64,000 bases of DNA. Origin: a virus. The stretch's first letter is position 1. Every line of letters starts with the position of its first letter. A program made the translations under genes and the position numbers. Positions 3,220 to 23,381 of the stretch are shown one piece after another. The stretch lies in IMG/VR virus record IMGVR_UViG_3300042542_002102, positions 1 to 64,000 of that record; one strand, given 5' to 3'. The notes below the pieces were generated by a model. It made no database searches, was not told where the DNA came from, and saw only the letters and a list, made by a program, of their open reading frames with translations.

Positions 3220-3615
3220 ATGTCTACTTGCTCCCCAGAAATTTTCGGCGCTGATCCAGTAAACATCCAATGGCGTGTTGTCAGAGGAGATACTGGCTCC
3301 CTTCGTGTTGAGTTTTTACAGCCCAATGAAGTAGATTTTTATGATACAGATGGATGGATTTTTAGAGCAACCGCTTATGATCAATCTGGAGATATTCTAG
3401 ACGCTCTTGAATGTGAGCCTGGTCCTGGATTTGTTGATATAAAGGCTCATCCATCAGTTACAAAAAATTGGGGATTAAAATATTTAAGAACAGTTGCAGA
3501 ACTACCATTTGATGTTCAAGTAACTATTCCAGAACTAATCGAAGATACTGTTTGGACTCCTGTAATTGGAACCATACATGTATTAGGCGACATCACACCA
3601 GGGGGTACACTATAA
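3220..3615 (+). CDS. BppU-like N-terminal domain protein, tail/baseplate (131 aa)
   Basis: A beta-rich protein whose core IQWRVVRGDTGSLRVEF resembles the start of the BppU-type domain (a baseplate upper-protein module that anchors receptor-binding proteins). The protein at 12415 has the same core (IRWTVVRGDSAAFRVYV) and general length, so the two are paralogs, and the N-terminus of the 5460 protein is a third relative. The start is leaderless. Its stop overlaps the ATG of the collagen-like fibre, suggesting it acts as that fibre's adaptor. The family name is a resemblance, not a search result. Confidence 0.55.
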   Translation: MSTCSPEIFGADPVNIQWRVVRGDTGSLRVEFLQPNEVDFYDTDGWIFRATAYDQSGDILDALECEPGPGFVDIKAHPSVTKNWGLKYLRTVAELPFDVQVTIPELIEDTVWTPVIGTIHVLGDITPGGTL

Positions 3616-4703
3616 TGGCAGTTATTAAAATTGTTCCAATGCCAGGCGCAGTTGGAGACAAGGGAGACGAAGGTGCTCCAGGACCACAAGGTCAGCAAGG
3701 ACCAGCAGGTCAAAATGGTTTGCCAGGAACACCTGCTCTATGGTCATATCAGGGTGCATACAACCCTGCTGCTGCTTATGCAGTTGGAGATTTAGTAACC
3801 TACCAAGGACAACTTTATTATACAAAGTCAGCAACAACTGCTGGAACACTTCCAACAAATACTGCAAAGTTTGATTTAATTGCATCAAAGGGTGCAGATG
3901 GCCAAGCAGGTGCAAATGGTATCAATGGAACTAACGGAACCAATGGTGCAGACTTTGGAATTTACTATTTAGGAAACTACAATCCAAATAGCGGATACGT
4001 TCCAGACATTGCAGTAGTTAGAGGATCAGACGGACAACTTTATCTTGCTAAAGCAAGTGGACAACTTGGAGATCCAGTTGGAAACACTGCACAATGGGAG
4101 GTTTGGATTCCTAAAGGTGCAGATGGTATAAATGGTGCAGATGCACTTTGGAATTACACAGGAGAATACAATGGCGGAGCATCATATGCCGTTGGAGATA
4201 TAGCAACATATGACGGACAACTTTGGTATCGTGTTGGTGCTAATGGCGGAAATGTTGGAGACACTCCTTCTCCAGGATTTTGGAATTTACTCGCAGCAAA
4301 AGGTGAGCCAGGAACTGATGTGTTTGCTGAAGATGGAACTTTGTATGGACCTACTAATTTTGGTGCCCTTAAAGTCTTGGGACTTATAAATTCAGGTGAT
4401 AATGATCTTGCTTTAGAGGTTAATGATGCAGATATATATCTACAGGCTTCTTCTGGAGCAGTAACTATTGCAGCGCCTGAAGTTACCATTACTTCAAATG
4501 CCGTTCCTTCTTCAGTAAATATCAATACATATAGTGGTGCAATAATTAATAGCGCAAGAACATCTGGCTATTCTGATGCAGACAAAGTTGTAGCAACTCT
4601 TGGAGATTTGCCAACGGGAGCAACGGGAACATTCCAAACATCAGACTCTAAAATTGTTACAGTTACCAACGGAATCATTACATCTATAGAGTCACTTACT
4701 TAA
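3615..4703 (+). CDS. collagen-like tail fibre with carbohydrate-binding repeats (362 aa)
   Basis: Residues 11-40 are Gly-X-Y triplets with proline at both X and Y positions; shorter Gly-X-Y stretches recur near 98-115, 160-175 and 230. Between them are three repeats of about 50 residues (YNPAAAYAVGDLVTYQGQLY and two variants) that look like CBM5/12-type chitin/cellulose-binding modules. The C-terminal ending GTFQTSDSKIVTVTNGIITS is of a type often seen at the tip of phage fibres. I chose ATG 3615, which overlaps the previous stop; an upstream in-frame start has no ribosome site. Probably a trimeric fibre that binds host surface glycans, and a candidate substrate for the proline-hydroxylase-like enzymes. 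Confidence 0.75.
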   Translation: MAVIKIVPMPGAVGDKGDEGAPGPQGQQGPAGQNGLPGTPALWSYQGAYNPAAAYAVGDLVTYQGQLYYTKSATTAGTLPTNTAKFDLIASKGADGQAGANGINGTNGTNGADFGIYYLGNYNPNSGYVPDIAVVRGSDGQLYLAKASGQLGDPVGNTAQWEVWIPKGADGINGADALWNYTGEYNGGASYAVGDIATYDGQLWYRVGANGGNVGDTPSPGFWNLLAAKGEPGTDVFAEDGTLYGPTNFGALKVLGLINSGDNDLALEVNDADIYLQASSGAVTIAAPEVTITSNAVPSSVNINTYSGAIINSARTSGYSDADKVVATLGDLPTGATGTFQTSDSKIVTVTNGIITSIESLT

Positions 4704-4708
4704 TATCG

Positions 4709-4717
4709 TGAGATAAT
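4709..4717 (+). promoter_or_regulatory. extended -10 promoter (TGAGATAAT), leaderless
   Basis: The box ends seven bases before ATG 4724. TG at 4709-4710 gives the extended motif; the hexamer is GATAAT. Confidence 0.5.
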
Positions 4718-4723
4718 GTACCC

Positions 4724-5452
4724 ATGGCCGTTTCTAAATCTATGGATTTTCCAGGTGCAAAAAAATCTTCTTATGCTGCACAAGTAGAACAAAGTCAGGC
4801 ATCTACCTCTGTAGATAACGTTCTTTCATTTCTTCCAGTCCCTGGACCAACTGGGCCACAGGGACCTGCAGGTAGAGATGGTAGAGATGGTGCAGACGGG
4901 AAAGAAGGGCCTCAAGGACCAGAAGGAAAAATAGGTCCACGAGGACCAGAAGGAAGAGAAGGATTAAGTTCTCTATCGTCTTCAGGACAGCAAGCAGGAT
5001 GGGCTTCTTATCACAATAAAATAGAAAAACCTTTTAAACTTGGAATATCTGAGGGAGACGATGGATGGGTAACTGTTTTTGTTTTATCTGATGAATTATC
5101 AAACGAAAGATATTTACCTAAAGATTGTGCTTCATTATGGAATGACCACGCTAGAGCCTTTAATTTTAAAGGACTTAAAGAAGGCTCTCAAGTATTTATA
5201 ACCTACAGTTTTGAGTTAACGACATATAGCAGTAACACAGAAGCCTGGATTCGAACATATTCTCCAAACAGCGAACTAGACATTGCTCAGTTTATAGGCT
5301 CAATGAAATATCAACATACCTATCCAATAACTGTAACCCAGCAGGTTTTTATTGAAAACCAAAAAATATGGGGTAACGGAGCAGTTCCTCAAATTAGAAC
5401 CGATTATGACGCATCAGTAATTCTCAAATCTATATATGTCAGCGTGGTATAA
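4724..5452 (+). CDS. collagen-like tail fibre with C-terminal head domain (242 aa)
   Basis: Residues 41-80 are about 13 uninterrupted Gly-X-Y triplets (GPTGPQGPAGRDGRDG and on). Here proline occurs only at X, not at Y, the position modified by animal collagen hydroxylases. After a serine-rich hinge (82-88) comes a roughly 150-residue beta-rich domain that is probably the receptor-binding head. Start chosen at ATG 4724, leaderless behind TGAGATAAT. Its terminal Val codon and stop lie inside the -10 box of the next gene. Confidence 0.7.
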   Translation: MAVSKSMDFPGAKKSSYAAQVEQSQASTSVDNVLSFLPVPGPTGPQGPAGRDGRDGADGKEGPQGPEGKIGPRGPEGREGLSSLSSSGQQAGWASYHNKIEKPFKLGISEGDDGWVTVFVLSDELSNERYLPKDCASLWNDHARAFNFKGLKEGSQVFITYSFELTTYSSNTEAWIRTYSPNSELDIAQFIGSMKYQHTYPITVTQQVFIENQKIWGNGAVPQIRTDYDASVILKSIYVSVV

Positions 5453-6695: not shown

Positions 6696-9600
6696 ATGGC
6701 TGCTGAATTTATTGATGATACTGAAAATGGCTCTGGGTTATACCCAACCAAGATACCTGGCTATGAAGATGCAGCAGATATTCAGGAAGCATTAAGACTT
6801 TATCATTATGGATCAAATGTTATACCAACTTCAAATGATTTAAATGGTACAGCAACAAGTATCAACACAAAGTCAGTCGCAGGACACCTAAAATCTTTAT
6901 CTAATGCAATTTCCTCAGAGGCAACAAGCAGAACAACTGCTGACACAAATCTTCAAAACCAAATAGATGGTATTTCAAACACTCTTTCTGCACAAAAAAG
7001 CGTAATTACAAAAAATACAGGTTTTACATTGGCTCTAACAGACGTATCAAAAACAATTCTTCTCAATACATCTTCAACAATGGACCTTACAGTTCCTACA
7101 AACTCATCTGTAGCAATTCCAGTAGGGTCTAGTTACAACTTAATTGAAATGGGTTCAGGAGTAACTCAGTTTGTTGCAGCAGCAGGAGTAACAATTAATA
7201 GCAAAAGATCACAACTATTTATTGACACACAGTATGGACAGGTAACTTTGTTAAAGGTTGCAGAAAATGCTTGGGTTGCATATGGTGATATATATGAAGG
7301 ATCAAATGCTCAAACATTCTTTAATGTGACATACAACTGTGGTCCTGGAGTAACAGATTGTCCTCCAAATACAACATACACTACATCATATACAATACCA
7401 ACAAACATTCCTGACTCTTTGCTTAGCAGTGATGGTGCTTTCCTTGGCTATTCACTTATTTCAGATAATACAAACTGCGGATTAAATACTGCATACCCTA
7501 ATGTATCTGCAGCAGACATTGCTAGTGGATATACAATTAGCGGTAACTGTGTTGGAAACTTGTCTTTATCTCCAGTATTTGCGTCTAACCCTGTTACACC
7601 AGTTACACCAGTAACGCCTGTTACACCAGTTACACCAGTAACACCAGTAACCCCTGTAACACCAGTAACCCCTGTAACACCAGATGTTACTCCTGTAACA
7701 CCAGATGTCACTCCTGTAACACCAGTTACTCCTGTAACACCAGTTACACCACCAGTAATGCGAACAGTGCCTAGTGTTGTTGGGTTAACAAATTCTGCAG
7801 CGCAAAGTGCAATCACTACAGCAGGATTGTCAGTAGGAAGTTTTACAACGGGATCAGCAACATCTGACCCTGCAAATGCTGACAAGGTTCAAAGCCAATT
7901 TCCTTCAGCAGGAACCCAAGTTGAATCAGGATCAAGTGTTAACCTAACAATGTGGAATTACTCAGCAGTAACACCACCAACAACTTATTATGGTTGCTGC
8001 AGTAATGGAGCAGGAGTTGAAGGAACATATGCGTCTTCAGGTGCAGCAGTAACAGGACTACAAGCAGCGTGTGCTGCCGATGAACAAGGAAACACTTTAA
8101 CTGGTGGAGTTTACACATCTCCACAGAGTTGTAATCCACCAGTGACACCAGTGACTCCTGTCACACCTGTCACACCTGTAACTCCAGTTACCCCTGTAGA
8201 TTGTTCAGACTATGGCCTTATTCCTGAGTCACAGTGTGAGGCTTGTGGATTAGTTTGGTCTCCAACATTTGGTGAATGTATTGAGCCAGAAACTGTAACA
8301 CCAGTTACTCCTGTAGATTGTTCAGATTATGGTCTTATTCCTCAGTCACAATGTGGTGCTTGTGGATTAGTATGGTCTCCAACATTTGGTGAGTGCATAG
8401 ATCCAGGAAACTGGACTGCAGTAGGATGTTGTAATGGAACTGCTCTTGCAGGTGCTGGAGATACAGAAGCAGAAGCAATAGCAGATTTAAATTCTCAGTG
8501 TTCTGGTTCATTAACAAGCACTAGTACTACAACAGGAACAGCAACACTTCCAAACTGTTCAACAGGAGACTGGACTGCAGTAGGATGTTGTAATGGAACT
8601 GCTCTTGCAGGTGCTGGAGATACAGAAGCAGAAGCAATAGCAGATTTAAATTCTCAGTGTTCTGGTTCATTAACAAGCACTAGTACTACAACAGGAACAG
8701 CAACACTTCCAAACTGTAGTGGATCTGTTACCCCTGTAACCCCTGTAACACCAGTAACTCCTGTAACACCAGTAACCCCTGTAACACCAGTAACACCTGT
8801 AACACCAGTAACTCCTGTAACACCAGTAGATTGTTCAGACACAAGTTTGCTTAATTCAAGTCAGTGCGGTGCATGTGGTTTAGTTTGGAATGCATCGTTT
8901 AATGAATGCGTAGAACCATCAGTAACCCCAGCAGTAACACCTGCAGTAACACCAGCAGTAACGCCTGCAGTTACTCCTGCAGTAACCCCAGCAGTTACAC
9001 CTGCAGTTACACCATCACAATGTCCACCAGGATATACTTGGTATCCAAACTTTGGTGAATGTATAGAAGATTCAGTAACACCTGCAGTAACACCTGCAGT
9101 AACACCTGCAGTAACACCTGCAGTAACACCAGAAGTTACTCCTGCAGTAACACCTGCAGTAACACCAGAAGTTACTCCTGCAGTAACCCCAGCAGTTACA
9201 CCTGCAGTTACACCAGAACCTTTCAGTTTCACACCACGCTTCATGGCATCGCTTGCACCAATGACAAAGGTCAGAATGGCTGACGGATCCATGAAGGCTG
9301 CAGAAGATGTTTTGGTTGGAGATGTTCTTATGTCCGTAGAACTTCCAGACTTTGCGAACTCCTATACAACAGAAGAATTGCTTTCTTGGACGGCACAGCA
9401 AGACATAACAGAATTAGAGCCAACAACTACAACTGTAAATAAAGTTACTCTCCATCCATCTTCGTCCATAATTAGCGTAAACGAGGATGTTTTTTCTCCA
9501 AACCATATACTGTTGATTAGAAGAGGGGACGAAGTTTCAATGAAGAAGACTTCAGAACTTCTTCCTACAGATATGGTGTGGGATTACGCAGCAGATGGTT

Positions 9601-9737
9601 GGGCAGAAATAACAGTCCTAGAAATACACGACTATGATCACACTGTCATCACTATAAACTGTGAGCCTAACGATCTATTCTTTACTCACGGCGCTCTAAC
9701 TCATGATGGTAATGAGTGGGCACAAAACCAAGAATAG
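6696..9737 (+). CDS. giant VTP-repeat tail fibre with PASTA and C-terminal Hint domain (1013 aa)
   Basis: Order of parts: a fibre-type N-terminus and coiled coil (1-110), a beta domain, a cysteine-bearing region loosely like an InlB repeat (206-298), a (VTP)n stalk (299-353), a PASTA domain (about 355-420, starting TVPSVVGLT), cysteine-rich repeats ([18 protein letters not shown] twice, then two identical copies of a 53-residue unit), further VTP and AVTP stalks, and a Hint module (846-1013). In the Hint module Ser852 aligns with the intein nucleophile ([14 protein letters not shown]), SPNH aligns with block B, and THDG (H1003, D1004) aligns with the usual terminal His-Asn. PASTA domains bind peptidoglycan, so the stalk may carry a cell-wall sensor. 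Self-cleavage or ester transfer by the Hint part is possible but not shown. Confidence 0.75.
7588..7755 (+). repeat. VTP-coding tandem repeats, first block
   Basis: Nine-base units coding Val-Thr-Pro (GTAACACCA and synonyms), about 18 copies with two VTPD variants. Synonymous codon mixing suggests selection on the peptide. A proline every third residue gives an extended stalk. Confidence 0.85.
8411..8717 (+). repeat. perfect 148-bp tandem duplication
   Basis: Bases 8411-8558 recur without a change at 8570-8717, a period of 159 bases (53 codons). The unit codes a cysteine-containing module starting [20 protein letters not shown]. Perfect identity at synonymous sites points to a recent duplication. 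Confidence 0.9.
8725..8829 (+). repeat. VTP-coding tandem repeats, second long block
   Basis: About eleven VTP units follow the duplicated module. The codons alternate more regularly than in the first block (GTAACACCA with GTAACCCCT or GTAACTCCT), giving an 18-base higher-order period. Confidence 0.8.
8921..9219 (+). repeat. AVTP/EVTP-coding tandem repeats
   Basis: Twelve-base units coding Ala-Val-Thr-Pro occur at 8921-9013 and 9074-9219, with Glu replacing Ala in some. The two blocks flank a cysteine module ([16 protein letters not shown]). The second block leads directly into the Hint domain. Confidence 0.85.
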
Positions 9738-9739
9738 TG

Positions 9740-9745
9740 TATAAT
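9740..9745 (+). promoter_or_regulatory. -10 box (TATAAT), leaderless
   Basis: Ends eight bases before ATG 9753, directly after the TAG stop of the fibre gene. Likely drives the zinc-ribbon protein and the two oxygenases after it. Confidence 0.5.
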
Positions 9746-9752
9746 TTTATAT

Positions 9753-9998
9753 ATGACAAGTCGTATAGAAAAAATAAAAGAAATAATAGAAACCAATAAA
9801 AAATCTGCTGTTGGTCCAATGGATATGATTAATCCAGAAACAGAATGGGTAGATGAAGAATTGTTTAATGAAAGATTCTCTATCTGTAAAGCATGTCCAG
9901 AATTAATAAAATTAACAAAACAATGCAAAAAGTGTGGGTGCTTTATGACTGTAAAAAGTAAAATGAAATTGGCATCTTGTCCGTTAGGTAAGTGGTAA
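9753..9998 (+). CDS. DUF6171-like zinc-ribbon protein (81 aa)
   Basis: The N-terminal half is helical and charged. The C-terminal half has C45-x2-C48, C58-x2-C61-x-C63 and C76, a pattern common in small phage zinc-binding proteins of the DUF6171 kind (CKACPELIKLTKQCKKCGC). Function of the family is not known to me. It is co-transcribed with, and overlaps the start of, a prolyl-hydroxylase-like gene. Confidence 0.55.
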   Translation: MTSRIEKIKEIIETNKKSAVGPMDMINPETEWVDEELFNERFSICKACPELIKLTKQCKKCGCFMTVKSKMKLASCPLGKW

Positions 9999-10597
9999 TG
10001 AAAAAAAGAGAAATTGCTCCAGGCATTATTGTATACTCTGACGCAATAAAAGAATCTGAATCCTTAGTTTTAGATATTGAAGAAGGAATGTCTAGTGCAA
10101 AAATAGAATGGCAATTAGCGGGAGTAAAAACGGGAGATGAAGATCCTGGGAAAAACAAGGAACTAAGAGATACTTTTGTAGTACCAATTCCATACAGCGA
10201 TACAGAGATTAAAGATTTTGTTGGATTTCAGGGGTCATTCTTCTCGTCTCTCACAAACCTATTTCTTGAAAATCTAGGACCATTAGAGCATGACTATAAA
10301 GTAGATCATGGACTTTCTACAACCTGGCACGATCAGTATAGTATATTAAAATATGGAGTTGGACAAAAGTTTGTAAACCATATTGATGATCACAAAGATT
10401 ATCATAGAAGAATGTCAACAATATATTATATTAATGATAACTACGAGGGTGGCGAAATAGTTTTTCCAAGATTTAATATTAAATATAAGCCAGCAGCCAA
10501 TGAGTTCTTAATTTTTCCATCAACCTATGTATATAATCATTCAGTGTCTCCAGTAATATCTGGAGAGAGATATGCTGTAGTAAGTTGGTTAAGATGA
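9998..10597 (+). CDS. prolyl-4-hydroxylase-like 2OG-Fe(II) dioxygenase (199 aa)
   Basis: The C-terminal double-stranded beta-helix carries the full catalytic set: H128-x-D130 and H181 as iron ligands and R191 (GERYAVVSW) for 2-oxoglutarate. The spacing and the GGEIVFP motif match the P4H family, which hydroxylates proline in proteins with O2 and 2-oxoglutarate. ATG 9998 overlaps the previous stop. It directly follows the VTP fibre and the zinc-ribbon gene and is coupled to a second oxygenase. The true substrate is unknown; the proline-rich fibres are the obvious candidates. Confidence 0.75.
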   Translation: MKKREIAPGIIVYSDAIKESESLVLDIEEGMSSAKIEWQLAGVKTGDEDPGKNKELRDTFVVPIPYSDTEIKDFVGFQGSFFSSLTNLFLENLGPLEHDYKVDHGLSTTWHDQYSILKYGVGQKFVNHIDDHKDYHRRMSTIYYINDNYEGGEIVFPRFNIKYKPAANEFLIFPSTYVYNHSVSPVISGERYAVVSWLR

Positions 10598-11169
10598 GTA
10601 TAGATATGAACCTTGTTAGACAGGCAATAATAGAAAATAGAATTCATGTTTTTAAGAATGCTTTTGCAGATTTGCCATCTTTGGACACATTAATGTCGGT
10701 TGTTTCAAAGTATGTTGAAGAAGACCTAGAAAAGTTTCCAGAAAGATCATATCTTTTAAGTGATTTTGTCGAAGGCGAGTCCTCTGATATGAGACTGAAG
10801 TGTAGATTTTGGTCAAGAATGGCTTTTCAACTTTACGACACAGAAGATACATATATGTCAATAATACCTGAGTTGGCTCCAGTTACAGAGTGGGCACTTT
10901 CTCATTACCCTGCAGATATTTATACTGGCAATTTTGGTTTGGTATCTTTAATGAAAAACAGAGGTGTGGTTGGTAGCAAACATAGAGATTATGTTGACCA
11001 GTTTCAGTGGGTAGTTAAAGGTGAAATGATCTGGCGCACAGGAGAGAATCTAGAAAATGAAACTCATGTTGTAGAAGGCGATTTTATATTTGTACCTAAA
11101 AATCTTGCTCATGAGGTTGAGACAATAAAAGCCCCAAGAGTAGCGATTAACCTAATATTAAGAAACTAA
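10594..11169 (+). CDS. cupin/JmjC-like 2OG-Fe(II) oxygenase (191 aa)
   Basis: The second half forms a cupin-like barrel with H130-R-D132, then H173 (AHEV) and R182, in the arrangement used by JmjC and ribosomal-type hydroxylases. GEMIWRTG and EGDFIFVPKN are typical barrel strands. ATG 10594 overlaps the TGA of the P4H-like gene by four bases, so the two are translationally coupled. A bidirectional terminator follows. Substrate unknown; the other six oxygenases are less similar to it. Confidence 0.55.
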   Translation: MSIDMNLVRQAIIENRIHVFKNAFADLPSLDTLMSVVSKYVEEDLEKFPERSYLLSDFVEGESSDMRLKCRFWSRMAFQLYDTEDTYMSIIPELAPVTEWALSHYPADIYTGNFGLVSLMKNRGVVGSKHRDYVDQFQWVVKGEMIWRTGENLENETHVVEGDFIFVPKNLAHEVETIKAPRVAINLILRN

Positions 11170-11172
11170 AAA

Positions 11173-11214
11173 GCACCTACAGATTTCTCCATAGGTGCCT
11201 TTAGTTATTTTTTT
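11173..11214. terminator. bidirectional terminator between convergent genes
   Basis: GCACCTA (11173-11179) pairs with TAGGTGC (11192-11198); AAA and TTT can extend the stem past one mismatch. A T7 run (11208-11214) serves the forward side, though about ten bases from the stem. The five A's before the stem act as a T-run for the reverse strand. Confidence 0.6.
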
Positions 11215-11776
11215 ACTTAGGAAATTTGCTCATCCAAAATTTTGTTCTTGGGGTGATGCCCTTCCATGAGGACCAATCTTCCCCACCGTTTGTCATGTAG
11301 TATGCAATTTCTGCATTCTTGACGGGATTGAATAGTTCAGCGTTAGAGTCAAGATCAAACTTAGTTCTACGATCAGGACCAAGTGCGTCAATCATGTTAA
11401 TTTGAAACATACCATAAGACGAGTCACCAGTCTTGTGATTGCCGTTAAAAGCCAATGGACGACCATTAGACTCTTTTTTAGCAACTGCCCAAGCAACTAC
11501 AAGGTCTTGACCCTTGAAGCCTACTAGAGAAAGCAGTTCCTTTAATTCTGAATCAGTCAGAGAAACCTTATTCTCAAAACTCTCTAGTTTTTTTGCCTTA
11601 GAAACCAAAAAAACCTCTTTCGAGGCTGGTTCCAATGTCTGAGCCTGTTCAAGGCTAAGATTGTTCTTAGTATCAAGACCTGAATCAGCATTTGCTCCGT
11701 TCGACAAAACAGTTACTAATGCTACGATACTGAGTGTGCTAATGATCTCTTTGTTTCTTTCGATAAATTTAATCAT
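11213..11776 (-). CDS. secreted SLT-type transglycosylase/muramidase (187 aa)
   Basis: Residues 1-30 are a signal peptide: a basic start, a hydrophobic core (STLSIVALVTVLSNG) and cleavage after ANA. Residues about 85-187 are a lysozyme-like SLT domain with catalytic Glu102 in AVAKKESNG and the motif GDSSYGMFQIN (117-127). It should cleave peptidoglycan outside the membrane, either for lysis or at entry. The start is set by AAGGAGG just upstream, with an in-frame earlier ATG rejected. It is the only reverse-strand gene between the two fibre clusters and has its own sigma-70-like promoter, so it is regulated apart from them. Confidence 0.75.
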   Translation of the reverse strand: MIKFIERNKEIISTLSIVALVTVLSNGANADSGLDTKNNLSLEQAQTLEPASKEVFLVSKAKKLESFENKVSLTDSELKELLSLVGFKGQDLVVAWAVAKKESNGRPLAFNGNHKTGDSSYGMFQINMIDALGPDRRTKFDLDSNAELFNPVKNAEIAYYMTNGGEDWSSWKGITPRTKFWMSKFPK

Positions 11777-17664: not shown

Positions 17665-19260
17665 ATGTCAAAGCAAGCAGGTAGAATGAGTCAGGGAGCA
17701 AACGACTTCCTAACTCCATACGCACCAACAATAGGTACAGCAACAGACGTTGGAACAGCAAGACCATTTGACAATGGTGCTGTATCAGTGACATTTACTC
17801 CTACAGGTCCAAATGCTGCAATAGACTTTACAGTAACAGCAAGCACAGGACAAACAGCAACTGGAGCATCTTCTCCAATTGTTGTAACTGGAATTGCTAC
17901 AGGAGCAACTCCAACATTTACAGTAACAGGAAGAAACGATGCAGGAGTTGGTCCAGCATCTGCTGCATCAAACGCTGCAACAGTTACCACTGTACCTGCT
18001 GCACCAACACTTGGAGCAGTAACAAATACATGTTCTGGTCGGGCACTTAACGATGGCCTTGTAACCGTTGCAATGACAGCAAATGCAACTGGCGGAAAGG
18101 CAATTACAGGATATTACGCAGTTTCAAATGCTGGACAAAATGCAACTAGTGCATCTTCTCCAGTAAGTGTTACTGGACTAACAGGAGGAACAGCATATAC
18201 TTTCCAGGGTCGTGTTTCAAATGCAAACGGTGACTCTCAGTTGTCAGCAGCGTCTGGATCAGTAACTGTAACAACACTTCCAGGGCAGGTTTCAACTCCA
18301 TCTGCATCAACACCTTCTGCAGGAGTAGATAGACTTACTTGGTCTGCACCATCAAACGGTGGTTCAGCAATTACAGCATATAACTGGGCATCTTCTGATG
18401 GAAAGTCTGGATCAACAGCATCAACTACTGTTGATATTGGCCAGGAACAAGGAACTGCACAGACATACACTGTTACTGCAGTTAATGCTTGTGGATCAGG
18501 ACCAACATCTCCTGCTTCAAACCAGGTAACAACTACGTTTTCATTTGTACCATTCGGAGTATTTGGATTCTCACCATTCGGAGTGTTTTCCTTCTCACCA
18601 TTTGGAGTGTTCTCGTTCTCACCATTTGGTTTCTCCCCATTTGGAGTGTTTGGTTTCTCCCCATTCGGCTTCTCACCATTTGGGTTCTCACCATTTGGGT
18701 TCTCACCATTTGGGTTCTCACCATTTGGGTTCTCACCATCAGGTTTTAGTTTCACACCACGCTTCATGGCATCGCTTGCACCAATGACAAAGGTCAGAAT
18801 GGCTGACGGATCTATGAAGGCTGCAGAAGACGTTTACGTCGGAGATGTACTTATGTCTGTAGAACTTCCAGAGTTTGCAGATTCTTATACAACACCAGAA
18901 TTGATGGCTTGGACATCAACGCAAGATATTGCAGACCTAACGCTAACTACCACAACAGTTAATAAAGTAACGATACATCCTTCTGATAAGGTAATTAGTG
19001 TTAACGAAGATGTCTTCTCTCCAAACCACCTTATATTGATAAAGAGAGAGGCTACGGTATTCATGTGTAGAGCCGACAACCTAACTCCTACAGATCTAAT
19101 TTGGGATTATACAGCAAATGGCTGGGTAGAAATAACAGTCCTAGAAATGCATGATTACGATCACACAGTTATTACTATTAACTGCGAGCCTAATGATCTA
19201 TTCTTTACACATAGTGCCCTTACGCACGACGGTAACGAGTGGACCCCAGACCAACCATAA
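17665..19260 (+). CDS. FN3-domain fibre with SPFG stalk and C-terminal Hint domain (531 aa)
   Basis: Three fibronectin type III-like domains (about 30-110, 111-205, 207-290) are followed by a stalk of FSPFG repeats (291-365) and a Hint module (366-531) closely related to that of the 6696 protein. Ser370 aligns with the intein nucleophile and THDG (H521, D522) with the C-terminal His-Asn; SPNH at the block B position is also kept. Only nine residues follow the His-Asp, so almost no C-extein remains. Ribosome site AAGGGAG. Probably a virion surface protein whose Hint part self-processes or attaches it to something. Confidence 0.7.
   Translation: MSKQAGRMSQGANDFLTPYAPTIGTATDVGTARPFDNGAVSVTFTPTGPNAAIDFTVTASTGQTATGASSPIVVTGIATGATPTFTVTGRNDAGVGPASAASNAATVTTVPAAPTLGAVTNTCSGRALNDGLVTVAMTANATGGKAITGYYAVSNAGQNATSASSPVSVTGLTGGTAYTFQGRVSNANGDSQLSAASGSVTVTTLPGQVSTPSASTPSAGVDRLTWSAPSNGGSAITAYNWASSDGKSGSTASTTVDIGQEQGTAQTYTVTAVNACGSGPTSPASNQVTTTFSFVPFGVFGFSPFGVFSFSPFGVFSFSPFGFSPFGVFGFSPFGFSPFGFSPFGFSPFGFSPFGFSPSGFSFTPRFMASLAPMTKVRMADGSMKAAEDVYVGDVLMSVELPEFADSYTTPELMAWTSTQDIADLTLTTTTVNKVTIHPSDKVISVNEDVFSPNHLILIKREATVFMCRADNLTPTDLIWDYTANGWVEITVLEMHDYDHTVITINCEPNDLFFTHSALTHDGNEWTPDQP
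18541..18745 (+). repeat. FSPFG-coding tandem repeats
   Basis: Repeats coding Phe-Ser-Pro-Phe-Gly with Val-Phe insertions. Within it, TTCTCACCATTTGGG is repeated four times perfectly at 18670-18729. An aromatic, Gly/Pro-rich repeat is unusual for a phage stalk. Confidence 0.85.
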
Positions 19261-20237: not shown

Positions 20238-22271
20238 ATGTCAGATTTTTTTAGTTTTAAACTTCCAGAGGATTTTGTAGAAAAGTACAAAAATGTAGAA
20301 AGCCCATTTGGATTCAAAGATGCAGCAGAAAATTCACTTGGAGAGATTACTTTTATTCGTACTTATTCTCGTATGAAGGAAGATGGAACTAAAGAAAGAT
20401 GGCATGAAGTTTGTCGTCGTGTAATCGAGGGTATGTATTCAGTGCAGAAAAATCATGCCAAGGAAAACCGTTTACCTTGGAATGACTACAAGGCACAGAA
20501 GTCAGCACAAGAAGCATTCCAAAGAATGTTTGAATTAAAATGGACACCACCAGGACGCGGTATGTGGGCATTTGGAACTCCTATGACTATGGAGAAAAAG
20601 AACTCAGCAGCACTACAAAACTGTGCAATGGTGTCTACAAAGGATCTTGACAAGAATGATCCAGGAGCATTATTTGCTTGGGTTATGGATGCCCTAATGC
20701 TTGGCATTGGTGTAGGGTTTGATACAGTGGGACAGGATAAGAATTTCTCAATCTATGCCCCAACAGAACCAGAACAGGTGTTCGAAATTCCAGACACTCG
20801 TGAAGGCTGGGTAGAGTCAGTCAGACTTCTTATCAACTCTTACCTTAGAGCAAACCAGAGTATTCAGAAGTTTAACTACGATTTGATCAGACCTCTTGGA
20901 GCGCCTATTAAGGGCTTTGGAGGCGTTGCATCAGGGCCTGCACCTCTTATCAAGTTACACGACCACATAGACCGTGTAATCGGCTCCAGAGCGGGTGAAA
21001 CACTAGACTCTCGTGCCATCGTAGACCTTGTAAACCTTATTGGTACATGTGTGGTATCAGGAAATGTTCGTAGATCAGCAACTCTTGCTTTAGGTAATGC
21101 TGGGGATGAAACATTCATGAATCTAAAGAACTCAGAACTATTCCCAGAACGTAACTCATTTGATCCAGAAAATCCAGGTTGGGCTTGGATGTCTAACAAT
21201 TCTATTTCAGCAGAAGTAGGAACAAAATATGAAGACTATGTAGATTTAATTACAGAAAACGGAGAACCAGGTTTTATCTGGCTTGATGTTGCTCGTAATT
21301 ATGGAAGACTAAAGGATGCGCCAGACGGTAAGGATTATCGTGTGATGGGATTTAACCCATGTGCGGAGCAGCCATTGGAATCATACGAACTATGTACACT
21401 TGTAGAAGTGCACTTAAATCGTCATGAATCTAAGGAGGACTTCCTGCGTACCCTGAAGTTTGCATACCTTTATGGAAAGACTGTAACACTTGTTCCAACA
21501 CACTGGCCACAAACAAACGGTATCATGCAACGCAACCGTCGTATTGGTACATCACTTACTGGTATTGCATCATTTGCAGATCAAAAGGGTTTGCCAATTG
21601 TTCGTGAGTGGATGGATGAAGGATACAACAAGATTCGTCATTACGATCATCAGTATTCAGAATGGCTATGTGTTCGTGAATCAATTCGTGTAACAACAGT
21701 TAAGCCATCAGGATCAGTTTCAATTCTTTCTGGTGCAACTCCTGGGGTTCACTGGGGACCTGGAGGAAACTTCTTCCTTCGTGCAGTTAGATTTGGTAAC
21801 ACAGATCCAATGATGCATTTGTTCAAAGCAGCAGGGTACACAATTGAAGACGACGTAGTATCAGCAAATACATCAGTAGTCTACTTCCCAATTAAGTCAG
21901 GTCATCCAAGATCTGAAAAGGATGTAACATTGTTCGAGAAGATTGCACTTGCTGCAACTGCTCAGAAGTATTGGTCCGATAATGGCGTTTCTGTAACGCT
22001 TTCATTTGATAAGGAAACAGAGTCAAAGCATGTTGTTCCAGCACTTCATATGTACGAGGGACAACTAAAGGCAGTTTCATTCCTTCCAATGGGAAACACT
22101 GTTTATCCACAACAGCCATATACTCAGATAACTGAAGAAGAATATGAGTCATATATTGGCAAGTTGAAGCATATTGATTTTGCTGCTATTTATGATGGAG
22201 CAGAGAACCTTGAGGCTCAAGGAGAGATGTACTGCACCACCGACTACTGTGAAATTAAGATTGGAAAATAA
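20238..22271 (+). CDS. nrdJ: adenosylcobalamin-dependent ribonucleoside-triphosphate reductase, class II (677 aa)
   Basis: Reduces ribonucleotides to deoxyribonucleotides using an adenosylcobalamin-derived thiyl radical. The reductase signature is NPCAEQPLESYELC: N373, C375 (thiyl radical), E377 and C386, which pairs with C129 (QNCAMVST). The C-terminal C666 and C671 are the shuttle pair for re-reduction. The length fits the monomeric, Lactobacillus-type enzyme. Ribosome site AAAGGA. It supplies dNTPs for the phage polymerase and works without oxygen, but needs host or scavenged B12. Coupled to the next oxygenase gene. Confidence 0.9.
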   Translation: MSDFFSFKLPEDFVEKYKNVESPFGFKDAAENSLGEITFIRTYSRMKEDGTKERWHEVCRRVIEGMYSVQKNHAKENRLPWNDYKAQKSAQEAFQRMFELKWTPPGRGMWAFGTPMTMEKKNSAALQNCAMVSTKDLDKNDPGALFAWVMDALMLGIGVGFDTVGQDKNFSIYAPTEPEQVFEIPDTREGWVESVRLLINSYLRANQSIQKFNYDLIRPLGAPIKGFGGVASGPAPLIKLHDHIDRVIGSRAGETLDSRAIVDLVNLIGTCVVSGNVRRSATLALGNAGDETFMNLKNSELFPERNSFDPENPGWAWMSNNSISAEVGTKYEDYVDLITENGEPGFIWLDVARNYGRLKDAPDGKDYRVMGFNPCAEQPLESYELCTLVEVHLNRHESKEDFLRTLKFAYLYGKTVTLVPTHWPQTNGIMQRNRRIGTSLTGIASFADQKGLPIVREWMDEGYNKIRHYDHQYSEWLCVRESIRVTTVKPSGSVSILSGATPGVHWGPGGNFFLRAVRFGNTDPMMHLFKAAGYTIEDDVVSANTSVVYFPIKSGHPRSEKDVTLFEKIALAATAQKYWSDNGVSVTLSFDKETESKHVVPALHMYEGQLKAVSFLPMGNTVYPQQPYTQITEEEYESYIGKLKHIDFAAIYDGAENLEAQGEMYCTTDYCEIKIGK

Positions 22272-22879
22272 TGAAAATAGTTAAAGGATTTATAGAAAAG
22301 TCAGATCTAGACACTGTTCAAGAATATATAAAGACTATAAAGTTTCACACTAGAGAAGACCATGTTCCTCTACACGATAATTTGTTTGACAACGACGGAA
22401 CAAAGTTTGATATACATACTCGTGGAGAAATGCCAGACAATGTTTTGGATGTTTTTTCAAAGTACTCTAGATCCTACTATAATCTAGTTCAGTCAGAAAA
22501 TGAAGACCAGTATCACCCTCCAATGTTTTCTAAGCACTACATAGCAAGATATAGAAATGGAGCATTTGCCGAGCCACATAACAATGAAAAGACAAAGCCA
22601 GAAGGAACATATTATTCTTTTATTGTTTGGCAAAATGCAGAAAATGGTGGAGACTTTATATTTCCTGAATTAGGTAAATCTTTTAAGCCAGAGCCTGGAG
22701 ACCTTATCTACTTTAAAGAAAAGTTTGAAAATAACCATGGCATAACAGAAATAATTTCTGGAGATCTTTTCTTATCAGAAGCCTGGATGGGTAAAAAAGG
22801 TCAACACTGGATGGAAAATAAGGCATCATATGAAGAAGTTGACTGGGAGAACTGGGAGATAAAAGGTTTTTATGAATGA
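22271..22879 (+). CDS. 2OG-Fe(II) oxygenase-like protein with altered active site (202 aa)
   Basis: The fold pattern of a P4H-like domain is clear (FSKHYIARYRNGAFAEPHNN, GGDFIFPELG, FKPEPGDLIYF). The HxD motif reads H103-N-N105, the distal His is H156 (NNHGITE), and the usual arginine that binds 2-oxoglutarate is a leucine (L166 in GDLFLSEAW). It may have lost oxidation activity, use another co-substrate, or act as a partner of the intact enzyme encoded next, which overlaps it by eight bases. Confidence 0.55.
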   Translation: MKIVKGFIEKSDLDTVQEYIKTIKFHTREDHVPLHDNLFDNDGTKFDIHTRGEMPDNVLDVFSKYSRSYYNLVQSENEDQYHPPMFSKHYIARYRNGAFAEPHNNEKTKPEGTYYSFIVWQNAENGGDFIFPELGKSFKPEPGDLIYFKEKFENNHGITEIISGDLFLSEAWMGKKGQHWMENKASYEEVDWENWEIKGFYE

Positions 22880-23381
22880 CCAAATAAAAGTTATAAGAGG
22901 GTTCATGGACCCAGAAGATGCGATGCTTGTTTCAGACTATGCTAGGTCTGTTGATTCCTCTTTTACTGAGTTTGGTAATGGTGAAAAAGAGTTTACATTT
23001 CATGCAAAATTTGAAGACTCAGATATTCAAAGCCTTTTAAATTTTTATGGACAACTTTCTTTGAAGTTTGTAAGAGATAACTACCCAGGCCCATTTGATG
23101 ATTATGACAGTTCTAAAACTCACATCGCCAGATTTGTTCAGGGAGATGGAATGCATGAGCACTTCGACTCTACAAAGCCAAATGATATAGCGACATTAAT
23201 ATATCTAAATAACGACTATGTAGGAGGAGAAATATACTTCCCAGACTATGACGTACATATTAAGCCTGACGCTGGAGATCTTGTATGTTTCCCAGATACT
23301 CCAGATTTTGTTCATGGCGTTAAGCCAATAACTGAGGGTATCAGATATACATCACCACGATGGTTTACACGCATAGTGTGA
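22872..23381 (+). CDS. prolyl-4-hydroxylase-like 2OG-Fe(II) dioxygenase (169 aa)
   Basis: A compact enzyme with the complete set H97-x-D99 (HEHFDS), H148 (FVHGVKP) and R158 (GIRYTSPRW), and the P4H-typical LIYLNNDYVGGEIYFP strand pair. It begins inside the end of the altered oxygenase, so the two may form a heteromer. The TGA stop is part of the next gene's TGATAAAAT promoter. Substrate unknown. Confidence 0.7.
   Translation: MNDQIKVIRGFMDPEDAMLVSDYARSVDSSFTEFGNGEKEFTFHAKFEDSDIQSLLNFYGQLSLKFVRDNYPGPFDDYDSSKTHIARFVQGDGMHEHFDSTKPNDIATLIYLNNDYVGGEIYFPDYDVHIKPDAGDLVCFPDTPDFVHGVKPITEGIRYTSPRWFTRIV

Follow-up and report, generated by a model that had tools for sequence, protein, structure and literature searches.

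We propose that two unlike oxygenases encoded side by side in a tailed phage form a repeat-matched modification pair acting on the VTP-repeat tail fibre encoded just upstream, a reading to which we would assign a probability of roughly 0.7. The window, by which we mean the whole 64,000-nucleotide stretch analysed, comprises most of the 69,675-base IMG/VR virus record IMGVR_UViG_3300042542_002102 (about 5.7 kb of the record lie outside it); portal, tape-measure and DNA polymerase genes identify the record, which may be a fragment, as that of a tailed phage. Our proposal draws mainly on a gene-neighbourhood comparison across relatives, as suggested by the first-pass annotation of this DNA, in which the enzyme set was found to follow the fibre repeat.

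The proposed substrate is a tail-fibre protein of 1013 aa (6696-9737, plus strand) with a conserved N-terminal part and 57 VTP units in seven arrays, among them a first array of 17 units (7593-7751), arrays of 6 and 2 units (8142-8312), one of 11 units (8727-8825) and AVTP/EVTP arrays of 8 and 12 units (8922-9215), all on the plus strand; a PASTA domain lies at 7764-7949. The fibre ends in a Hint-like segment (9228-9737), and a second fibre with FSPFG repeats ends in a near-identical one (18751-19260), the two 170-residue ends sharing 129 of 169 residues. The corresponding fibre ends of some relatives (contigs L212, L232, L227 and L132) resemble an intact intein-type Hint domain, with Cys first and HNS or HNT last; the window has another residue in place of this Cys, and THD at the end, so that self-cleavage has probably been lost.

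Behind the fibre, a TATAAT box (9740-9745) directly precedes a small Cys-rich DUF6171 gene (9753-9998, plus strand; 81 aa), so that this gene, a P4H-type 2OG-Fe(II) oxygenase gene (9998-10597, plus strand; 199 aa) and a JmjC/cupin-type oxygenase gene (10594-11169, plus strand; 191 aa) plausibly form one transcribed three-gene unit. The P4H start overlaps the DUF6171 gene by one base. That the two enzyme genes overlap by four bases had already been noted, and the open reading frames confirm it: P4H stop and JmjC start share the letters ATGA, and the offset at this junction is identical in all 22 relatives in which the two genes are direct neighbours. The same annotation had placed the pair behind the VTP fibre and a small zinc-ribbon gene; the order stands, though no library assigned the zinc-ribbon name, the protein matching DUF6171 instead (Pfam, 37 bits, above the cut-off; also phrog_13558), and a zinc-ribbon reading of this Cys-rich protein is plausible. 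An inverted repeat read from the sequence (GCACCTA...TAGGTGC, then a T run on the plus strand; listed for the minus strand) occupies 11170-11214 and is a probable transcript end for both the cassette and the opposing gene, an SLT_3 lysozyme-like gene (11213-11776, minus strand) that usually forms the right-hand border of what we find to be an exchangeable slot. TATAAT boxes lie a few bases 5' of the starts at 3220, 9753, 11878, 12415, 13046 and 29173, a spacing that resembles leaderless transcripts and could inform on host promoters.

The first enzyme matches PF13640 (2OG-FeII_Oxy_3) with 62.2 bits against a cut-off of 27. All 73 relatives retain its iron ligands H128, D130 and H181 (counting from the ATG), and 72 of them retain R191, the presumed 2OG ligand some 10 residues past the distal His; identity to cyanophage 2OG-Fe(II) oxygenases (phrog_61) is 26-37%. 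Two further, tandem 2OG-Fe(II) oxygenase genes of the window (22271-22879 and 22872-23381; 22 and 42 bits) follow a ribonucleotide reductase gene, and several relatives of about 100-119 kb have 4-12 genes of this kind.

The second enzyme we call a JmjC-type oxygenase by virtue of its predicted fold and its ligands, its activity being putative. No variation is seen at H130, D132 and H173 (HxD...H), or at R182 (H+9) and R148, across 34 aligned sequences 66-95% identical to the window protein, and the triad is kept at 98-100% in 57 relatives. The predicted model is of modest confidence (pLDDT 65, pTM 0.68) and adopts a double-stranded beta-helix of the JmjC/cupin type, for which Foldseek returned YcfD as the best match (4ccl; E 3.6e-5, probability 1.00), followed by NO66, MINA53, YxbC and some non-oxygenase cupins. 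A rival reading keeps the cupin fold but denies 2OG oxygenase activity, making the protein, say, a sugar isomerase or a domain accessory to the GT61 enzyme. No Pfam JmjC or cupin family reaches its cut-off (Cupin_2 25.1 against 27.2 bits, JmjC_2 13.8 against 22, Cupin_8 12.9 against 27.4), the protein is often fused to GT61 in relatives, other cupins occur among the structural matches, and Met145 stands where, by a motif alignment, we take the 2OG-binding R140 of YcfD strand 4 to fall, a role for which the invariant R182 or R148 could serve instead. We nevertheless regard this alternative as unlikely in view of the invariant triad and H+9 arginine, of best structural matches that are 2OG hydroxylases, and of the fact that GT61 is absent from about half of the JmjC loci, including that of the window. 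A tblastn search of 50,697 records of isolated phages gave no match to the JmjC gene, and a search of 84,980 bacterial and archaeal genomes gave a single weak fragment, so there is no cellular context to borrow for it.

To sample the locus, contigs were collected by scans for each enzyme, for two transferases and for the neighbouring lysozyme gene, the last being an anchor independent of the finding, with more than 580 matches in all. This yielded about 135 distinct viral contigs carrying the locus; they are metagenomic fragments with home-made gene calls and repeat classes derived from simple counts, and the sample is enriched for P4H and JmjC except in its lysozyme-anchored part. Dozens of contigs repeat the order fibre, DUF6171, P4H, (extra genes), JmjC and reversed lysozyme-like gene, which argues that the two-oxygenase arrangement is not due to chance.

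Between the fibre and the lysozyme-like gene the relatives carry an exchangeable set of oxygenases, glycosyltransferases and a GDP-mannose 3,5-epimerase (E 1e-89 against a solved enzyme of that name). The JmjC gene occurs alone, beside a separate GT61 gene or fused behind GT61 in a protein of about 538 aa (GT61 N-terminal, 53 bits; JmjC C-terminal). PF11397 enzymes of the slot match their family with 178 bits, one slot protein has a weak O-FucT match, and a third oxygenase family, OX193, is predicted with confidence to have the 2OG-oxygenase fold (pLDDT 91), its structural matches including PHD2 and the PBCV-1 P4H. A sequence-based search for solved relatives of the PF11397 and GT61 proteins found none. 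Single slot genes were read from their sequences as radical-SAM-like, nucleotidyltransferase-like or methyltransferase-like; those of contigs L230, L265 and L215 (284-334 aa) have CNxGCWFCP-like motifs and C-terminal Cys clusters, as radical-SAM/SPASM enzymes do, and possibly represent further fibre-modifying chemistry. In more distant phages (L127, L132, L134 and L136), P4H genes adjoin fibres with other repeats (YVPP, FSP). In isolated Xanthomonas and Stenotrophomonas jumbo phages, the stretches within 15 kb of PF11397 relatives carry no gene annotated as an oxygenase or a fibre, one of the records holding only hypothetical products.

The central observation comes from the 92 contigs with a readable fibre: the JmjC gene and a VTP-rich fibre coincide in 43 of them and are both missing from 46, two have JmjC only and one has VTP only (Fisher P = 1.7e-22). 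Expressed per fibre, the JmjC gene stands behind 43 of 44 VTP-rich fibres as opposed to 2 of 48 others; when contigs are sorted by repeat type, it accompanies 44 of 45 VTP fibres, with or without P4H. The lysozyme-anchored subset behaves likewise (8 both, 34 neither, one discordant contig of each kind; P = 4e-7). As to the exceptions, one JmjC-only contig (L015) has a 227-aa fibre fragment that itself carries 8 VTP units, and the other (L203) has VAPTP repeats and a JmjC protein from a divergent subfamily, whose identity of about 35% is confined to the cupin part; wherever the fibre in front of a member of the window's own JmjC family could be read, it was a VTP-repeat fibre. The VTP-rich fibre of L247 and the mixed-repeat fibres of L259 and L157 are without a JmjC gene. 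The first-pass annotation had suggested a target common to both enzymes and nominated the VTP fibre, and the strength of this association, taken with some 20 evolutionary switches described below, strongly supports that choice; it had also reasoned that homologous pairs situated mostly away from VTP-like fibres would speak against the idea, and the opposite distribution was found.

Other repeat types have their own partners. PTPT fibres are followed by P4H in 17 of 23 cases and then by PF11397 or by the epimerase plus transferases, VAP fibres by OX193 in 11 of 12 (OX193-VAP association, P = 6e-8), and FTP fibres, at the same position, by an oxygenase in none of six contigs. P4H is missing from the slot behind seven VTP fibres that do have the JmjC gene, and behind three PTPT fibres a PF11397 enzyme occurs with no oxygenase at all, so neither oxygenase is required for the other or for the transferase. 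Proline content as a driver of oxygenase presence looked promising at first and was rejected (P = 0.12 over the whole fibre body); what serves as an informative control is the type of repeat rather than its richness in proline.

The repeat itself behaves in a manner consistent with a recognition motif. Among 2125 VTP units from JmjC-carrying loci there is one single-residue variant inside regular arrays, with 31 positions departing from the motif at two or more residues; each of the four codons for Val, for Thr and for Pro is used, and the units are separated by nothing or by Ala, Pro, Ser, Glu or Gly. Because the units are near-invariant despite such diverse synonymous codons, selection keeps V-T-P at the protein level with the spacing free, as would be expected if an enzyme had to recognize it.

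Could common ancestry or mere proximity account for the association? On flanking-gene trees, the JmjC and VTP traits each switch about 20 times, and phylogenetically independent pairs on supported branches agree: about 12 of 12 on the tree of F199, an upstream tail gene (P = 0.0005), 8 of 8 on the lysozyme DNA tree (P = 0.008) and 7 of 8, with none opposed, on the tree of the fibre N-terminus (P = 0.016). Being neighbours, the fibre end and the cassette could be exchanged as one block, and one may thus suppose that the 3' part of the fibre and the cassette constitute a single recombination block in which repeat and enzymes are functionally unrelated, as the adjacency of the genes and the switching of both traits at the same branches would permit. 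DUF6171, however, lies inside such a block and does not track repeat type: for 42 contigs the P4H tree needs 5-6 class changes, against 11-12 for DUF6171, 13-14 for F199 and 11-12 for lysozyme, on trees of 75-200 columns that are imprecise, and the lower P4H count persists when every alignment is cut to 75 columns. P4H thus follows the repeat where the intervening DUF6171 does not, which is suggestive. Moreover, among contigs of the JmjC class the presence of P4H, GT61 and GT231 varies but JmjC and VTP remain paired, and there are several repeat types, each with its own enzyme set, which leaves simple hitch-hiking very improbable.

The DUF6171 gene is present in the slot nearly always, regardless of repeat type. 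In L222, L233 and L238, behind PTPT fibres, a single protein of about 395-400 aa carries DUF6171 at its N-terminus ahead of a PF11397-type transferase, a fusion which suggests that the small DUF6171 protein serves the modifying enzymes, perhaps as an adaptor.

Two further explanations would leave the enzymes in place but give them another substrate. According to the first, the cassette's target is a host surface glycan (capsule, LPS), or its product a small sugar metabolite, and it lies next to the fibre only because the two are host-interaction loci exchanged jointly. The GDP-mannose 3,5-epimerase and the several transferases of the relatives' slot would fit this, as would the jumbo cyanophage clusters of glycosyltransferase, epimerase, 2OG oxygenase and cupin genes that, in the part of PMC7824862 that treats them, are read as capsule-modifying or secondary-metabolite systems. 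Such a locus would not, however, be predicted to have enzyme families that match the amino-acid repeat of the fibre, a P4H that follows repeat type when DUF6171 does not, or VTP units that resist amino-acid change, and the oxygenase-fused GT61 and the PF11397 enzymes point, by the families they are named for, to protein substrates; we therefore deem it improbable. According to the second, the substrate is some other protein of the virion. Collagen is the classical substrate of prolyl hydroxylases, and collagen-like (Gly-X-Y) tail proteins are encoded a few genes upstream, at 3621-5452. Yet collagen-like genes are also present where the slot is without an oxygenase (e.g. L233), the record and its relatives have further 2OG oxygenases elsewhere that could serve them, and slot content follows the fibre repeat, all of which makes this possibility very slight.

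Returning to the fibre as substrate, we envisage the following course of events, in which catalysis, substrate, residues and the order of the steps are what we infer. The P4H-type enzyme would most likely hydroxylate prolines along the 57 VTP repeats, and the JmjC-type enzyme would most likely hydroxylate another residue within the same V-T-P unit, either Val or Thr. In nearly half of the relatives with VTP fibres, GT61, separate or fused to JmjC, would then probably attach sugars, in some of them joined by a further putative transferase. With glycosyltransferases and nucleotide-sugar enzymes encoded in the relatives' slot, the modification probably extends beyond hydroxylation. In the window phage the two oxygenases are the only enzymes left in the slot: it holds no glycosyltransferase, there is no PF11397 gene beside P4H, GT61 coupling is seen only in relatives, and no GT61 was found within the 69,675 bases of the record; here, either hydroxylation alone would occur or transferases would be encoded elsewhere or by the host. 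Such modification would be expected to alter fibre stiffness, stability or host interaction. We also lean, if only a little, towards a broader repeat code, in which VTP, PTPT, VAP and FTP each go with their own oxygenase/glycosyltransferase set (none for FTP), repeat and enzymes being swapped as a functional unit so as to yield extensin- or mucin-like, densely hydroxylated and glycosylated fibres that change host recognition or evade counter-measures of the host.

Some aquatic viromes are rich in viral P4H-like genes, whose use by viruses has been called cryptic (PMC9301287). The locus described here offers a concrete, testable substrate for a viral P4H, namely a repeat of the fibre whose type changes in step with the enzymes. 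If our reading is true, phages make tail fibres that contain hydroxyproline, are probably O-glycosylated and can exchange one chemistry for another; this would add a new layer of host-recognition variation and supply hydroxylases and transferases with sequence specificity towards short repeats.

It is already known that virus hydroxylases act on repetitive structural proteins and that phage virions can be glycosylated; a search of the literature available to us for hydroxyproline or P4H with phage tail fibres found no earlier description of a repeat-matched slot. With respect to glycosylated mycobacteriophage virions, we know of no oxygenases or repeat fibre in that system. Glycans on these virion proteins (Freeman 2023, as relayed in the passages of PMC12619734 that cite it) sit on the C-termini of capsid and tail tube subunits in that account, unlike the fibre repeat here. 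Phage 2OG oxygenases sometimes clustered with glycosyltransferases in jumbo cyanophages are interpreted as capsule modification, and no repeat-matched fibre is described with these clusters in the relevant portion of PMC7824862, unlike at the window locus. The second enzyme shares HxD..H with the YcfD/NO66/MINA53 ribosomal oxygenases (JmjC_2), its best solved-fold matches, but these are about twice its size and, by the motif alignment, differ in the 2OG-binding residue; the phage protein has no match above the Pfam cut-off and is encoded next to a fibre gene. The prolyl 4-hydroxylase of PBCV-1 reportedly has candidate proline-rich repeat substrates among viral proteins. This virus-encoded P4H (Eriksson 1999, as cited in PMC9301287; PDB 5c5t) is, in contrast to the phage locus, a single enzyme of an algal virus with no repeat-matched cassette beside a tail fibre. 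The mimivirus protein L230 is a fusion of glycosyltransferase and lysyl hydroxylase that modifies viral collagen (PMC9614988). Like it, the GT61-JmjC fusion of the relatives is a viral transferase-hydroxylase with the transferase first and a putative repetitive structural target; unlike it, with its collagen-type transferase, lysyl hydroxylase and Gly-X-Y target, the phages combine GT61 or PF11397 with P4H/JmjC and VTP or PTPT fibre repeats, and the window slot is without a transferase. Finally, GNT1 of the Skp1 pathway is presumably a PF11397 member. In that pathway of Toxoplasma and Dictyostelium, PHYa hydroxylates a proline and GNT1 then transfers GlcNAc to the hydroxyproline (PMC11570480), and the PTPT-type relatives likewise place a PF11397 enzyme directly behind P4H, although PF11397 is absent from the window slot and occurs in relatives sometimes without P4H; where Skp1 offers a single proline on a cytosolic protein, the phages would offer tens of repeats on a virion fibre.
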